Positions 10,462 to 63,990 of a stretch of 64,000 nucleotides of DNA are shown here, piece after piece (position 1 is the first letter of the stretch; every line of letters begins with the position of its first letter). The stretch comes from Paenibacillus donghaensis. GTDB lineage: Bacteria > Bacillota > Bacilli > Paenibacillales > Paenibacillaceae. The notes beneath the pieces are model-generated. The model ran no database searches and was not told the origin of the DNA. It saw nothing but the letters and a program-made list of their open reading frames with translations. The DNA lies in the NCBI RefSeq assembly GCF_002192415.1, contig NZ_CP021780.1, positions 5,518,001 through 5,582,000 on the forward strand, written 5' to 3'. The translations under genes and the position numbers were made by a program.

Positions 10462-12654
10462 CTACTCCTTCACCGGCTCTGGTGTATACACTACCGTCTT
10501 CTCCAGGGTAGTTACTTTGCCCAGGCTGTTCATCACCTTGAACACAAAGGTATTGCTGCCTGCTTGTAACGTAACGGTCTCGCGGAAGCTGCCATAGCTG
10601 CCCACCAGCTTATCGTTCAGATAGATTTTGGGATAGCTGTCATTGGCGTCCTTGGCACTGCCGCTGATGGTGATCTCCGCGCTGCTGGTGGTCTCTGGAA
10701 GGTAATCCAGGCTCAGCTCTGGTCCGCTAACGGTAAAAATAATCGTCTTGGTGATGACCTCCGAGCTTTTGCCGAGACTATTCACCGCCTTGAACACGAA
10801 CGGGTTCTCGCCTTCCTTCAGCGTAACCTCTTCCCGGAAGGAGCCGTAGCTGCCCACCAGCTTGTCATTCAGATAAATCTTCGGATAGCTGTCATTGGTG
10901 TCAGTAGCGCTACCGCTGAGCGTAACCGTCTTACTACTGCTGGTCTCCGGTACCAGATCGAGCTTCAGCTCAGGTCCGCCCACCGTGAAGGTAATCTTCT
11001 TCGTGATCACTTCCGAGCTTTTGCCGAGATTATTCACCGCCTTGAATACGAAAGTGTTCTCGCCTTCCTTCAGCGTAACCTCCTCATGGAAAGAGCCATA
11101 GCTGCCCACCAGCTTGTCATTCAGATAAATCTTAGGGTAGCCGTCGTTCTTGTCAGTGGCACTCCCGCTCAGCGTAACTGTCTTACTACTGCTGGTCTCA
11201 GGCACGAGGTCGAGCTTAAGCTCAGGTCCGCCCACCGTGAAGATAATTTTCTTGGTGATCAGCGCAGAGCTTTTGCCGAGGCTGTTGGTAGCTTTGAACA
11301 CAAAAACATTCTCGCCTTCCTTCAGCGTAACCTCCTCACGGAAAGAGCCGTAGCTGCCGACCAATTTGTCATTCATATAAACTTTCGGGTAGCTATCATT
11401 CTTGTCAGTGGCTTTGCCGCTCAGCGTGACCGTCTTGCTGCTGCTCGTCTCCGGCATATTGTCCAGGTTAAGGACGGGTCCGCCCAGAGTGACTACGATT
11501 TGCTTCTCGACTACCGCTTTTTTGTCATTCTTGTTGGTAGCCGTTACCACGATCCGGTTGATGCCTTCTTCCAGCGTCACTTCCAGGCTGAACTCCCCGT
11601 TATAGGACAGAGTGGCCGATTCATCGTTGATCTTCACCGTTGGGTATGGATCACTGCTGTCCGTCACTTTACCAGTAATCTTGGCTTTCAGCTGGTTCGC
11701 TGTTTCCGGAGCCTGCACCGTCAGCTGGGGACCTGTAGTCGCATACGTTACCTTCTTGGTAACCGTGCTGGAGCGCCCATTCGGCAATACGGCCTTGAAC
11801 ACATATTCATAGACCTTCTCCCCGCCATCCAGATCATAAGCTTCGGCAAAAGCGCCATCCACATTCTCGACTTCCTCGTCATTGATGTACACCTTGGCAT
11901 CGGCATTTACTTTGCCGGACACCTTCAGTGTTCTGTCAGCGACCTGCCCGGGAACCTGGACCTCCAGCTTCACATCCTGCGTAGCCGTAGCATAAGAAGA
12001 CTTCAGCACCCGGTACAGCAAGGTCGCTACAGACGCCCGATTAATCGGGCTGTTCGGCTGAAACGTTCCATCCGGGAACCCTTGAATCAGCTTCTGGTCC
12101 ACCGCCACGGCCACTTCCTTCGCCAGCTGCGGGGATACTTCATCATAGTCATCAAATTTATAGGCCAGGATATTCTCGGCATCTACATTATCGGTTTCAA
12201 GTCCCATAGCACGCACCAACGCTACCGCCACATCTTCACGCGTAGCATTCGCCTGCGGGTCAAAAAAAGGTTTTCCCTTCACAGGGAAATACCCCGTCAG
12301 GTACTCCTTCGCCGATTCTACATATTTATAAGCCCAAGAGGACGAATTCACATCCGCGAAGGTCTGCGTCCCGTCCGAGACCAGGTCGAGCCCAAAGGTC
12401 AGCGTAATCAGCTTCGCCAGCTGCTCGCGGGTAATCGCCGATTCCGGTTTAAACGAGCCGTCCGGGTTCCCCGTAATAATCCCCTGCTTGGCCATACTCA
12501 CAATCGCTTCATTCGCCCAATACGTGGTTTTGACATCTACAAACGCATAGGAGGTCGTCTGCTGCACAACCGTAGCCGCACTTGCCACTCCCCCAACCAG
12601 CATGCTAAACAGCATCAGCCATGCTGCCGCTAATCTAACTCTCATTCCCCTCAT
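10462..12654 (-). CDS. SLH-domain cell-surface protein with near-identical Ig-like repeats
   Basis: Secreted 730-residue protein expected to attach to pyruvylated secondary cell-wall polymer. ATG at 12652-12654 follows GGAGGGG by eight bases. A signal peptide (about 1-27, ending ASA) is followed by three SLH domains at about 35-90, 97-155 and 160-220 (FVDVKTTYWANEAI..., FADVNSSSWAYKYV..., and the degenerate KFDDYDEVSPQLAK...). Then come six repeats of about 84 residues, each of the form ETSSSKTVTLSGSATD...YPKIYLNDKLVGSYGSF...GENTFVFKAVNSLGKSS, resembling glucodextranase-B-type Ig-like modules. The last four copies are nearly identical. The repeats probably form a rod or adhesive stalk. It sits just downstream of the polysaccharide locus but has its own promoter-like box and terminator. 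Confidence 0.85.
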   Translation of the reverse strand: MRGMRVRLAAAWLMLFSMLVGGVASAATVVQQTTSYAFVDVKTTYWANEAIVSMAKQGIITGNPDGSFKPESAITREQLAKLITLTFGLDLVSDGTQTFADVNSSSWAYKYVESAKEYLTGYFPVKGKPFFDPQANATREDVAVALVRAMGLETDNVDAENILAYKFDDYDEVSPQLAKEVAVAVDQKLIQGFPDGTFQPNSPINRASVATLLYRVLKSSYATATQDVKLEVQVPGQVADRTLKVSGKVNADAKVYINDEEVENVDGAFAEAYDLDGGEKVYEYVFKAVLPNGRSSTVTKKVTYATTGPQLTVQAPETANQLKAKITGKVTDSSDPYPTVKINDESATLSYNGEFSLEVTLEEGINRIVVTATNKNDKKAVVEKQIVVTLGGPVLNLDNMPETSSSKTVTLSGKATDKNDSYPKVYMNDKLVGSYGSFREEVTLKEGENVFVFKATNSLGKSSALITKKIIFTVGGPELKLDLVPETSSSKTVTLSGSATDKNDGYPKIYLNDKLVGSYGSFHEEVTLKEGENTFVFKAVNNLGKSSEVITKKITFTVGGPELKLDLVPETSSSKTVTLSGSATDTNDSYPKIYLNDKLVGSYGSFREEVTLKEGENPFVFKAVNSLGKSSEVITKTIIFTVSGPELSLDYLPETTSSAEITISGSAKDANDSYPKIYLNDKLVGSYGSFRETVTLQAGSNTFVFKVMNSLGKVTTLEKTVVYTPEPVKE
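10470..11475 (-). repeat. four tandem 252-bp coding repeats
   Basis: Inside the SLH gene the DNA repeats with a period of about 252 bases. For example, the CTGCCCACCAGCTTGTCATT block recurs near 10853 and 11105, with slightly diverged copies near 10601 and 11357. Nucleotide identity between copies is high including silent sites, so duplication is recent or maintained by recombination. Confidence 0.85.
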
Positions 12655-41304: not shown

Positions 41305-41432
41305 GCCAGCTGCGGGAAGGAACTCTATACTCTGGAGCTAGAAGAGCGCTTTATAAGTTTCTTCGCCGTTTCCCAGTTTCCAAGATCAAAACTTATCTGA
41401 CGAAGAGTCAGGATACTCACCCGGAGAGAACA

Positions 41433-41612
41433 TTCCTGTAAAAGTACAGGAATTTCTTCTCTTCTTCCTCTTGTTAGCTGAATTCCTGCAAATATACAGG
41501 CTTTCCGGCGGTTGGGTCTGGCGACCAGCGCAGGGGATGTAAATACCTGCACTTTTGCAGGCTTTAGGCCCCAAAGGCCGTTTTCGCACGAAAAAAGCTG
41601 TATTATTGCAGG
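41433..41612. repeat. cluster of CCTGYA dyad repeats between lonB and lonA
   Basis: Four dyads of the same plan lie within 180 bases: TTCCTGTAAAAGTACAGGAA (41433-41452), CCTGCAAATATACAGG (41485-41500), CCTGCACTTTTGCAGG (41546-41561) and CTGTATTATTGCAGG (41598-41612). They are related to the dyads in the large arrays near 50.7-51.9 kb and 63.5-63.8 kb. Confidence 0.7.
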
Positions 41613-41731
41613 AATTCTGGACACAAGGAGCATAGCATGCTGGGTAAGAAATTCTGAACCTCTATAATAGCCCAGCGCGACGGGTATAGGCGTGTCAAGC
41701 CGCCGTGCGGGCTGGCGCAGGCGCGGCGCGG

Positions 41732-50107: not shown

Positions 50108-50296
50108 GCTCGCCTTCGCAGGCTATCTTCCACTTCATCTGTTTACAGTTTTCCTTAAGTTATTAAAGTTTAAAAGGCTATCCGAAACGAATCAGAACTA
50201 AATTATAGCATACCCACTCGGTAACAAAAAAATAGTTTGAATTATCCCATTCTATATGATATGATAATTTTTGCTTGCTTTTGAGTCATTGAATAT

Positions 50297-50370
50297 GTCC
50301 CGGTAGCTCAGCCGGATAGAGCATGCGCCTTCTAAGCGCACGGTCGGGGGTTCGAATCCCTCCCGGGACG
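50297..50370 (+). tRNA. tRNA-Arg (anticodon TCT)
   Basis: Complete 74-base cloverleaf without encoded CCA. Acceptor GTCCCGG (50297-50303) pairs with CCGGGAC (50363-50369), discriminator G. The anticodon stem TGCGC/GCGCA (50324-50328, 50336-50340) encloses the loop CTTCTAA with anticodon TCT at 50331-50333, reading AGA/AGG. The T-arm GGGGGTTCGAATCCCTC is standard. It is the only plus-strand gene in this stretch and directly borders the large repeat arrays. Confidence 0.97.
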
Positions 50371-50375
50371 TCACG

Positions 50376-50403
50376 AAACAGCCTTCCTTCGGGAAGGCTG
50401 TTT
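50376..50403 (+). terminator. UUCG-loop terminator after tRNA-Arg
   Basis: AAACAGCCTTCC and GGAAGGCTGTTT form a 12-bp stem closed by a TTCG tetraloop, starting six bases after the tRNA end. The same hairpin recurs at 50510-50533 and, in reverse orientation, at 63867-63890, so it is also part of the repeat module. Confidence 0.85.
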
Positions 50404-50640
50404 GTGCGTCTGGGGGATCAGAACCCCCGTGGTTCGTTGATGCATTCGCTTCGTTAGCTCTACTTCGCAATCTGCCCTTTGGGGCGGTATCCCGTTCCGG
50501 GACTTGGTGACAGCCTTCCTTCGGGAAGGCTGTTTGTGCGTCTGGAGGCGAGAACCCCCGTGCTTCGTTGATGCATCTCCTTCGTTAGCTCCACTTCGCA
50601 ATCCGCCCTTTGGGGCGGTATCCCGTTCCGGGATGGGACG
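50378..50640. repeat. two 132-bp direct repeats downstream of tRNA-Arg
   Basis: The stretch from the UUCG hairpin through GCGTCTGG..., GAACCCCCGTG..., TTCGTTGATGCAT and CCCTTTGGGGCGGTATCCCG occurs twice (50378-50509 and 50510-50640) with few differences. Parts of it reappear inverted at 63860-63960. Confidence 0.8.
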
Positions 50641-51865
50641 AGAACCCGTACACCAAAGTATCGATACGCTGCTCTCTCGCTCGAACCAAAGTAACAAAAG
50701 CCTGCAAAAGTGCAGGCTTTTCGCAGAAATTCTACGGATTAAGAAGAATACCTGCAATTGTGCAGGTATTTCAGACTTATTTTACTCCAAAGACGGTTTA
50801 GCCCGGATAAAGATGTACTTTTGCAGGTATTTGAGCATTGGCGGCGCTGGTGGCTACAAAAGATGTATTATCGCAGGTATTTCGCACCTGCCCCCTTACA
50901 CCCCAGTTTCATCTGCCCTCGTACTTGCGGGTTTATAGTGCTGATGGGGGCGCGGTCGGGGACGAGAACCCGTACACCAAAGTATCGATACGCTGCTCTC
51001 TCGCTCGAACCAAAGTAACAAAAACCTGCAAATGTGCAGGCTTTTCGCAGAAATTCTACGGATTAAGAAGAATACCTGCGATTGTGCAGGTATTTCAGAC
51101 AAATTTTACTCCAAAGATCGCTTTAGCCCGAATAAAGATGTACTTTTGCAGGTATTTGAGCATTGGCGGCGCTGGTGGCTACAAAAGATGTATTATCGCA
51201 GGTATTTCGCACCTGCCCCCTTACACCCCAGTTTCATCTGCCCTCGTACTTGCGGGTTTATAGTGCTGATGGGGGCGCGGTCGGGGACGAGAACCCGTAC
51301 ACCAAAGTATCGATACGCTGCCCTCTCGCTCGAACCAAAGTAACAAAAACCTGCAAAAGTGCAGGCTTTTCGCAGAAATTCTACGGATTAAGAAGAATAC
51401 CTGCGATTGTGCAGGTATTTCAGACTTATTTTACTCCAAAGACGCTTTAGCCCGAATAAAGATGTACTTTTGCAGGTATTTGAGCATTTGTGGCGCTGGT
51501 GGCTACAAAAGATGTATTATCGCAGGTATTTCGCACACGCCCCCTTACACCCCAGTTTCATCTGCCCTCGTACTTGCGGGTTTATAGTGCTGATGGGGGC
51601 GGGTCTGGGGATGATAACCCGTACACCAAAGTATCGATACGCTGCCCTCTCGCTCGAACCAAAGTAACAAAAACCTGCAAAAGTGCAGGCTTTTCGCAGA
51701 AATTCTACGGATTAAGAAGAATACCTGCAATTGTGCAGGTATTTCAGACTTATTTTACTCCAAAGACGGTTTAGCCCGGATAAAGATGTACTTTTGCAGG
51801 TATTTGAGCATTGGCGGCGCTGGTGGCTACAAAAGATGTATTATCGCAGGTATTTCGCACACGGC
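50641..51865. repeat. array of 324-bp tandem repeats rich in CCTGCA dyads
   Basis: A unit of 324-325 bases is repeated: copies begin with the AGAACCCGTACACC block at 50641, 50965, 51290 and (as ATAACCC) 51614, the last being about 250 bases long. Each full unit contains CCTGCA-N4-TGCAGG dyads (for example 50701-50716 and 50751-50766, the latter extendable to a 10-bp stem AATACCTGCA/TGCAGGTATT), and two 50-base submotifs ending GCAGGTATTT. Copy-to-copy differences often fall in the loops or keep pairing (A to G giving G-U). The long reading frames over it are by-products of the periodicity. Confidence 0.9.
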
Positions 51866-51894: not shown

Positions 51895-52090
51895 ACGTGT
51901 GTGGGTGGGGCGTATGTATGTGTGTGTTGTGTGTGTTATGTGTGTAAGGGTGTTGCGTGTTGCGTGTTGCGTGTTGCGTGTTGCGTGTTGGGTGTTGGGT
52001 GATGGGTGATGTGTGATGTGTGTCTTGTGTCTTGTGTCTTGTGTCTTGTGTCTTGTGTCTTGTGTGTCTTGTGTGTGTGTATTGGTAGAT
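51895..52090. repeat. G/T-rich tract with 16 heptamer units
   Basis: From 51953 to 52064 the plus strand is an unbroken series of 7-base units: TTGCGTG five times, TTGGGTG twice, ATGGGTG once, ATGTGTG twice and TCTTGTG six times. The flanks (51895-51952 and 52065-52090) are also almost only G and T. Strand asymmetry is extreme. It follows directly on the 324-bp array. Confidence 0.95.
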
Positions 52091-60424: not shown

Positions 60425-60640
60425 GGAGTAAATAGATGCGAAACTGCAACTAATTTCAGTCGTATCGTGCGCTATCGGGTGATTAAGTGCGAATCTGCAA
60501 TTAATTTCGATTAAAATGGTTCACTGACGATCAAACCCCTGAATTAGATGCTAATTCGCATCTATTTCCCCAAAAACGGAAAAAACCCTATATTTAGATG
60601 CAGTTTCGCAACTAATTCAGGGTTCGATCTTATGGAACCA
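60425..60640. repeat. four imperfect GATGCGAA/TTCGCAAC repeats
   Basis: After the SNF2 gene, related short blocks recur about every 50-60 bases: TAGATGCGAAACTGCAACTA, AAGTGCGAATCTGCAATTAA, TAGATGCTAATTCGCATCTA and TAGATGCAGTTTCGCAACTA. The third is a near-perfect palindrome and the first and fourth are mutual inverse forms. This family differs from the CCTGCA dyads. Confidence 0.65.
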
Positions 60641-60969: not shown

Positions 60970-61194
60970 CCTTTCTCCCTCCTCCCTTTTATGGCTGGCC
61001 TCTATTAAACTAGCAGACAGCTTCGTATTGATGGATCGATATAGTAATATTTCAGCAAACCGCGTACGGGGTGGACAATATGGAGACATCGGGTAAAGCA
61101 ACTCGGATGCTTCGAACCCTTTTGCTTCATCCGTTATATAGTTGTTGCATTTTTCGCTAAATTCGTTATACTTGTAAAAAATTAATACATATAA

Positions 61195-61425
61195 TCGATG
61201 ATCGGGAGAGTAATTACGTTTGTTCTAGTCTACAGCGAGCCGGAAGAGTGAAAGCCGGTACAGGACAGCTAATGAAGCGCACCCGTGAGATGGACCTCTG
61301 AAGCCAGTAGGAGGTTCCGGCAGAAGGCCGTTAACCTGTAAGGTGGCTAAACAGCTTGTTTAGCAACAAGAGTGGTACCGCGAGCGCTGAAGCCCTCGTC
61401 TCTTATGGAGATGAGGGCTTTTGTG
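61195..61425 (+). promoter_or_regulatory. T-box riboswitch, arginine (specifier CGC)
   Basis: Leader of argS. The T-box sequence AAGAGTGGTACCGCGAG is at about 61368-61384, and it can form the antiterminator with upstream sequence. The terminator hairpin AGCCCTCGTCTC...GAGATGAGGGCT followed by TTTTG is at 61391-61423. Stem I contains the usual GAA-specifier-A pattern, GAAGCGCACC, putting the Arg codon CGC at 61278-61280 in the specifier loop. Uncharged tRNA-Arg would bind and prevent termination, raising argS expression when arginine is short. Confidence 0.92.
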
Positions 61426-63331: not shown

Positions 63332-63465
63332 CTGAGGCAGCTAAGGAATACGCGATTCCGCTAAAGGAAGCCAGAACGTGCCGAACGTACCTTGCGAAGT
63401 AGTGCTAACGTGTGTGAGCGGTTGGGCGTACGTGTATATGCTCGGGGGGCGTGTGCGATGTGCGA

Positions 63466-63715
63466 AATACCTGCAATAATACATCTTTTATAGCTACCAG
63501 CGCCGCCAATGCTCAAATACCTGCGAAAGTACATCTTTTCTAGCCGCCAGCACCACCAATGCTCAAATACCTGCAATAATACATCTTTTCTGGCCGCCAG
63601 CGCCGCCAATGCTCAAATACCTGCAATAGTACATCTTTTCTAGCCGCCAGCACCACCAATGCTCAAATACCTGCAATAGTACATCTTTTTTCGCGCTAAA
63701 CCGCCTTTGGAGTAA
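63466..63715. repeat. five exact 50-bp tandem repeats
   Basis: AATACCTGCAATA.TACATCTTTTCT..CCGCCAGC.CC.CCAATGCTCA is repeated with an exact 50-base period starting at 63466, 63516, 63566, 63616 and 63666. Differences are single bases; the A/C-rich positions alternate GCCGCC and ACCACC between copies. It is the reverse complement of the two 50-base submotifs inside the 324-bp units at 50641-51865. Confidence 0.92.
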
Positions 63716-63990
63716 ATTTAGTCTGAAATGCCTGCACTATCGCAGGTATTCTTCTTAATATGTAGGCTTTCTGCGAAAAGCCTGCACATTTGCAGGTTTT
63801 CGCCGGTTCCCAAAGCGATGGCACATTCGTGCGGTGGCGGTGAGCGTTCTCCCCCCGAACGCACAAACAGCCTTCCCGAAGGAAGGCTGTCATCACCGTC
63901 CCGGCACGGGATACCGCCCCAAAGGGCGAATTGCGAAGTAGCGTTAATGTGTGTGGGCGGATCGGCATACAGGGGCGGATAAATGTAAGT
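63716..63990. repeat. inverted, rearranged copy of the 50.4-51.9 kb repeat module
   Basis: Read on the minus strand this stretch gives, in order, GCGAAGTAGCG-type, CCCTTTGGGGCGGTATCCCG, the UUCG-loop hairpin (63867-63890), the dyad CCTGCAAATGTGCAGG (63781-63796), AAGAAGAATACCTGCGATAGTGCAGGC (split: dyad at 63733-63748) and ACTCCAAAGGCGGTTTAG, i.e. the same blocks and order as at 50510-50820. It ends near the window edge; more may lie beyond. Confidence 0.85.

Follow-up and report, generated by a model that had tools for sequence, protein, structure and literature searches.

The described systems closest to the element reported here are dispersed palindromic repeats, miniature transposons, phased sequences of the nucleosome-positioning kind, and the platforms of DNA-wrapping regulators. 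REP sequences and BIMEs, as the available portions of two accounts describe them, are high-copy, intergenic, built of inverted palindromic units, gathered in clusters and targeted by insertion sequences (PMC2817692; PMC1525189), and the element likewise consists of imperfect palindromes in inverted orientation, lies between genes and is present in high copy number. In the BIMEs of Stenotrophomonas, however, the segments between REPs vary substantially in length, according to the same partly available source (PMC2817692), whereas the spacers of the element are fixed to ~1 bp and phased. Nucleosome-positioning sequences and the gyrase motif, which the available part of one paper itself compares, have A/T and G/C phased at about one helical turn, as here (PMC6379681), but the element is discrete, repeated and sequence-defined, with four dyads and a period of ~10.0 bp over ~18 turns. 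RemA and LrpC form octameric assemblies that have been proposed to wrap DNA, and the accessible text of that paper describes RemA sites as weakly conserved and upstream of promoters (PMC8481266), whereas the element is a dispersed module that avoids divergent promoters. IS66-type MITEs are matched by one class of the element (class II, below) in its units of 308-333 bp, the terminal inverted repeat GGTTACTACTTAGGNCC, 6-bp duplications and a related IS66-family element, but the four-dyad core, unlike such MITEs, also occurs without IS66 ends and with other flanks. The MITE vehicles are ordinary in kind, and it is the core module that has no counterpart among the families compared. The TGCA-N4-TGCA core of the dyads is similar to the tra box of LuxR/TraR-type regulators and to the 6-4-6 arrangement of helix-turn-helix sites of the NarL/LuxR type; this is a likeness only, and no protein of that kind was linked to the element. 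A preliminary description had called the tandem array treated below an undescribed element, and this holds within the Paenibacillus literature searched, which took in few subscription journals and contained no description of such an element.

Bacterial repeats are usually explained by mobility alone; here, geometry and helical phase outlive the letters. We consider it probable that the element, which is scattered among many soil-living members of one family, is a dispersed module in which four dyads bind protein dimers and ~180 bp of phased DNA is wrapped round them, and that MITE-like vehicles have spread it.

The array and the four-dyad element

The window, by which we mean the whole 64-kb stretch of the Paenibacillus donghaensis genome that was analysed, contains a forward-strand tandem array at 50635..51860 that TRF resolves into 3.8 copies of a 324-bp unit with 97% matches, the units starting 324, 325 and 324 bp apart; the preliminary description had rightly recognised nearly four head-to-tail copies of 324-325 bp. 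The array lies, as had also been stated, beside a tRNA-Arg gene (50296-50372), and begins 263 bp after it. Between gene and array stand two copies of a 131-bp unit (50378..50633, forward strand), and related sequence, read by eye, adjoins an element at 63.86-63.96 kb. The array holds four forward-strand elements of four dyads each: copy 1 at 50696..50882 (dyads at 50701, 50751, 50812 and 50862; spacing 50, 61, 50), copy 2 at 51020..51207 (51025, 51075, 51137 and 51187; 50, 62, 50), copy 3 at 51345..51531 (51350, 51400, 51461 and 51511; 50, 61, 50) and copy 4 at 51669..51855 (51674, 51724, 51785 and 51835; 50, 61, 50). The submotif of ~50 bp described earlier corresponds to the step from dyad to dyad; what had been overlooked were dyads 3 and 4, the 50-61-50 geometry and the other copies in the window (41435-41612, 63470-63796 and 60433-60614). 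These comprise a further class I element (41430..41617, forward strand; dyads at 41435, 41485, 41546 and 41597; spacing 50, 61, 51), an extended class I element with seven dyads (63465..63801, reverse strand; five at 50-bp steps, then 61, then 50), whose array extends past the window to genome position ~5582953, and a class II core without assigned strand (60433..60614; 20-mer dyads at 60433, 60484, 60545 and 60595; spacing 51, 61, 50), at which transposon ends are not recognisable within 4 mismatches. The window contains 19 CCTGCA-N4-TGCAGG sites with at most two mismatches, compared to a mean of 3.0 and a largest value of 8 in shuffles.

The genome-wide search for CCTGCA-N4-TGCAGG that had been proposed as a check gave 105 exact sites in the single contig of 8,542,333 bp and none for a control in which the pattern was read backwards. 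When the flanking A/T letters were included and one mismatch was allowed, the dyad matched 184 and 186 times on the two strands and the control again not at all. These counts make the array a single local representative of a family that is scattered through the genome. Among 47 stretches fetched from this genome, 45 contain complete elements (L150 and L157 lack class I), and the ~187-bp element is present in 59 complete copies at 46 places in 8.54 Mb. By raw count, 28 of these places are in the origin half of the chromosome and 18 in the other half, dnaA being at 7.06 Mb.

Each element consists of four 16-bp dyads, with the class I consensus AAAWN-CCTGCR-AWWR-TRCA-KN-NWTTT including flanks, and the last two dyads as a rule point the opposite way to the first two. 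In a scan that allowed steps of 48-53, 58-65 and 48-53 bp and took dyads in either orientation, the start-to-start spacing was 50/51, 60-62 and 50/51 in 59/59 elements, distributed as (50,61,50) in 29, (51,61,50) in 17 and (50,61,51) in 6, with the middle step off by 1 bp in the remaining 7. Judged by half-site match, the order > > < < has no contrary dyad in 51/59 elements, with many symmetric ties, and one contrary dyad in 8/59. Most loops of dyads 1 and 2 are AAAG-like, and most of those of dyads 3 and 4 are CTTT-like, the reverse complement. Of the loops listed previously, AAAG, AATG and ATTG are present, whereas "TTTT" corresponds in this array to CTTT, as found in half-degenerate dyads such as GATGTACTTTTGCAGG. 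Also present, at 51075 and 51400, are the CCTGCG...TGCAGG variants, which had been taken for pairing rescued through G-U; the variant base is at one of two purine-tolerant positions of the motif. Conservation sets in sharply 5 bp before dyad 1 and ends 5 bp after dyad 4; beyond these limits there is almost none, except for flanks common to members of subfamilies. Five- and seven-dyad variants occur in one array, and a strictly four-site particle is therefore not obligatory.

Occurrence, gene context and transposon vehicles

A scan of named genomes with a two-dyad pattern returned at least 110 stretches. Among the matches listed, 66 of 80 stretches hold 72 four-dyad elements, all 66 from Paenibacillaceae and with none in the reversed control, and the hosts of these are 17 Paenibacillus taxa, three Cohnella, one Fontibacillus and one MAG; the other 14 of these 80 comprise ten from Paenibacillaceae and all four from other groups. 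With steps of 46-55, 54-69 and 46-55 bp allowed and the order > > < < required, these 72 elements, again among the matches listed, are spaced at 50/51, 60-62 and 49-51. Thirty further stretches from the same scan added 25 elements in 25 stretches, with a middle step of 61-64 and a last step of 50-52. A three-dyad pattern matched 83 of 394 genomes of the family, in 12 of its 19 genera, with 4 control matches in all, and the spread is patchy: there are 277 matches in P. donghaensis, 160 in G143 and 156 in G271, and none with this pattern in 311/394 genomes, including 75 genomes of one genus. Loci taken from 27 of the matching genomes, some of which are the same species as the named ones, show the 50/51-61-50/51 spacing in 23 cases (2 in the reversed control); of the other four, one is a tandem repeat and three lack a four-dyad element. 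Since the patterns of the two-dyad, three-dyad and 27-locus scans all derive from the P. donghaensis genome, other dyad types are undercounted. The outer dyad bases vary between genera, with CCTGCA, ACTGCA and TAGNTGC types, as expected if the binding proteins differ.

In 29/29 relatives, the 1.5 kb on either side of the pst gene are free of elements, and these empty loci, together with the 311 genomes without a match, show that the element is not essential. Comparison of a P. alba locus with 11 genomes of genus g9 gave partial matches but no ortholog set. A phage or plasmid origin was rejected, as there was one match in viral contigs, none in phages and only weak matches in plasmids (E=0.6, three records, one of them a 2.7-Mb Paenibacillus replicon). 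RAYT transposases have a characteristic size, and a REP/RAYT system was set aside as well: the genome encodes no Y1 transposase of that size, the PF01797 matches being four proteins of 133 aa and a fifth copy broken by stops.

None of the 46 element places in P. donghaensis falls inside a called gene, and two have no called gene on one side. In a second round of gene calling, 51/66 class I and class II places fall between two called genes, and only 2 of these 51 gene pairs are divergent, compared to 9/52 control pairs and to 8/20 controls with spacers >150 bp (Fisher P=0.0004). A search of shared neighbours for a binding protein or an autonomous partner returned recurring clusters that belong mainly to large multi-copy families. 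Solitary dyads, which may serve as a clue to the binding protein, were read at two places, and four sites were scanned for transposon ends.

The second class of dyad, TARNTGC-N6-GCANYTA, has the same spacing as class I and forms 232 pairs in the P. donghaensis genome, with none in the control. Of 20 class II loci fetched from among the ~100 matches listed, 16 have four dyads at 50, 61 (63 once) and 50/51; in the remaining four, one or two dyads are missing, in most cases because something else has inserted there. Eight of the 20 lie in units of 308-333 bp with ends like GGTTACTACTTAGGNCC on both sides, and these terminal inverted repeats are common to the class II units and an IS66-family element of 1,605 bp, which encodes a protein of 501 aa (PF03050, E=1.9e-49). 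Among 27 end pairs with repeats of this type, read by eye and taken as units to the exclusion of other combinations of the same ends, 8 have exact 6-bp duplications, which include GAAAAT (in a class I dyad at 429.6-430 kb), TTTTTT, CTATTT, TAAATC and AAATAT. The IS66-family element itself (L314:255-1859; genome 1400154-1401758) interrupts a class II dyad at its 6-nt loop and is flanked by a 6-bp duplication, GATATC. Several related MITEs are also inserted in dyad loops, and insertion sequences that target palindromic repeats are already known, as the available part of one account sets out (PMC1525189). Internal dyads are absent from the IS66-family element and likewise from a 300-bp MITE that has these ends, and the dyads are therefore not needed for IS66-type transposition.

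Across 18 class II copies, deviation from the consensus is 8-15% in dyads, 18-26% in spacers and 38-39% in outer flanks. Dyads 1 and 2 served as the search key, and the bias-free values are those of dyads 3 and 4, at 8% and 15%, with dyad 4 destroyed in two copies. L295 and L296 have kept their class II dyads unbroken although their ends have 5-7 mismatches of 17, and two other copies with decayed ends (L307 and L311) have 2-3 dyad mismatches. Subfamily B of class I has other, TIR-like ends (by eye), no terminal inverted repeats were recognised for the class I type of the window array, and there is no target duplication round the 187-bp class I core in 117 elements. The near-identical copies dispersed in G118, and similar ones in G143, have yet other flanks. 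With ends and flanks differing in this way between classes, subfamilies and these two genomes, one core travels in several vehicles. In addition, L315 contains an insertion sequence with a DDE_Tnp_1 transposase of 405 aa, and the class II element in L308 is interrupted by apparently the same sequence (by eye).

Helical phase and its interpretation

Between the A/T flanks of the dyads, spacer columns contain little letter information, mostly <0.3 bit, and A/T content nevertheless oscillates every ~10 bp across spacers and dyads alike. For 59 elements <70% identical, the best period is 9.95 bp in spacers only and 10.05 bp over the whole element, with a power of 0.113 compared to at most 0.024 in 300 shuffles, and the 27 elements of P. 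donghaensis and the 32 from named species agree. Each spacer type exceeded all 500 shuffles, both in P. donghaensis and in the set from P. alba and P. ferrarius, except for one weaker subset (P=0.006), and the spacers of 24 family-scan loci exceeded all 2000. Outer flanks are periodic too, but more weakly by a factor of four to five, with a power of 0.02 that is above all 300 shuffles (n=228). When 29 elements are pooled, the profile has 19 strong maxima from -2 to 179, ~10.06 bp apart; this profile merges both orientations and is hence symmetric by construction, while the 59-element analysis does not merge them. The sites are thus helically phased, with an A/T phase independent of the letters, as in a platform for DNA wrapping. 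A ~10-bp A/T periodicity points to DNA that is bent or wrapped and not to an RNA, and what it indicates is bendability, not wrapping itself. Of the two readings that the preliminary description had favoured over random duplication, the target of a dimeric protein fits the oriented dyads, the rigid phased spacing and the outer dyad bases that differ between genera, and the structured transcript does not.

The latter, whether as a structured RNA or as a bidirectional terminator built of hairpins, is very improbable. The array does contain 11 terminator-like sites where 2.2 are expected, and single dyads are often pairable (101/184 on the forward and 94/184 on the reverse strand), but the 8 terminator-like sites that are dyads are all on one strand, the scan of the array for promoter-like sites returned none, and all four dyads are pairable in only 2/46 P. 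donghaensis elements on the forward strand, none on the reverse strand and 0/72 named-species elements on either. The covariation check that had been suggested went against RNA. Over ten flanking base pairs per dyad in 184 P. donghaensis dyads, complementarity equals that of shuffled partners in all but 4/40 tests, where the excess is weak (-1/+1 of dyads 1 and 4, P=0.009 and 0.03; two positions of dyad 3, P=0.01 and 0.001), which is no consistent covariation. Non-Watson-Crick core pairs number 57 G.U and 55 A.C on one strand, with the numbers reversed on the other, and 85 and 71 in named species; as the two kinds are equally frequent on either strand, wobble does not preserve pairing on one strand or the other. 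Over the array, all Rfam families stayed under their gathering scores, the two matches being far below, and the inverted placing of dyads 3 and 4 with respect to dyads 1 and 2, understandable in DNA, also counts against a structured transcript. Among the DNA readings, a strong gyrase-binding site like BIME-2, at which gyrase would wrap the phased DNA and the dyads would be secondary, is quite unlikely. The E. coli gyrase motif has periodic G+C flanks and BIME-2 repeats are cleaved by gyrase, yet its period is 10.75 bp over ~130 bp, and nothing mentioned in the available part of the report corresponds to four conserved dyads set at fixed distances (PMC6379681). Our elements, at 9.95-10.05 bp over ~180 bp, do not have that periodicity, for which the reference value is that of E. 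coli. Somewhat less unlikely, but still doubtful, is a platform for a regulator that forms rings and wraps DNA and has already been described from Bacilli, for example RemA or an octamer of the Lrp/LrpC type. The proposed wrapping by RemA octamers involves at least six protected AT-rich 7-bp stretches at 3-bp intervals, according to the accessible part of the source, which also describes these repeats as only modestly conserved in sequence, unlike the dyads (PMC8481266). The variation of the outer dyad bases between genera and the patchiness of the element argue against RemA and Lrp as well.

A purely selfish explanation deserves more weight, although we would still bet against it: the elements could be non-autonomous transposons without host function, in which dyads, spacing and phased A/T form a MITE interior required by the transposase or for the folding of its synaptic complex. 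The class II ends GGTTACTACTTAGGNCC, the 6-bp duplications, the IS66-family element with the same ends, the near-identical copies in G118, the similar ones in G143 and the very patchy distribution all fit, and the available text of one study puts forward the proposal that transposons benefit from phased A/T tracts when the transpososome assembles (PMC4132750). However, ends of this type transpose without internal dyads in the IS66-family element and the 300-bp MITE, L295 and L296 retain whole class II dyads despite 5-7 end mismatches of 17, class I ends are different or not recognisable, and the class I core lacks target duplications. The preferred reading is still the wrapped module. A geometry and a helical phase that stay fixed across many genera, with several dyad specificities, speak strongly for a large and ordered complex of protein and DNA. 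In this complex, four predicted dimers would bind one face of the DNA, and ~180 bp of smoothly bent DNA would wrap round them into a compact, two-fold symmetric, superhelical structure in which dyads 1 and 3, and likewise 2 and 4, are perhaps one superhelical turn (111 bp) apart. On nucleosomes, where DNA is wrapped in the left-handed sense, the repeat is shorter than 10.5 bp, and the period found here would suggest the same handedness. MITE-like vehicles may have spread the module between genes, and local tandem duplication could then have produced arrays such as 50635-51860. Because the dyads can outlast the transposon ends, we prefer a host role, most likely as a chromosome-organising or insulating node between transcription units, possibly by holding supercoils. 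More tentatively, as one possibility that we rate below an even chance, the ~187-bp module may be a bacterial counterpart of nucleosome-positioning sequences, with four family-specific dimers and ~1.5 left-handed turns, delivered by transposons and kept by the host. If so, retention as a supercoil-holding or insulating node would explain how dyads and phase outlive the transposon ends, and transposons would distribute sites of chromosome architecture.

Satellites and other features near the elements

In P. donghaensis, the share of micro- and minisatellites in non-coding sequence is 7.5-10% up to 300 bp from an element and 0-2% farther away, and in named species it is 2.8-5.6% near elements compared to <0.4%; the figure at element-free pst loci is 1.7%. 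In the window, no satellite is found near elements after open-frame masking, which removes the window's own satellite. The enrichment is a lead only, because intergenic length confounds the comparison. Long satellites (for example, 9 bp x 40 and 7 bp x 34) occur within ~100 bp of elements at L151, L165, L167, L179, L182, L152 and window 51921-52080, the last being a forward-strand 7-bp microsatellite immediately 3' of the array. In G118 (L269-L278), ~42-bp units of the GTGCAGCGACGGAAG...GCGAACCCCCG type stand in tandem directly after many of the near-identical element copies.

Dyad positions are near-identical in L027 (8526850-8529919) and L028 (6079-9148), at the two contig ends, as if these ends overlapped by ~21.5 kb in an untrimmed circular assembly, judging from the coordinates. 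Elsewhere in the window, a tandem repeat of 252 bp in 3.4 copies at 10591-11454 may correspond to a repeated protein domain, and a T-box leader (RF00230, 116.5 bits) lies at 61189-61406.
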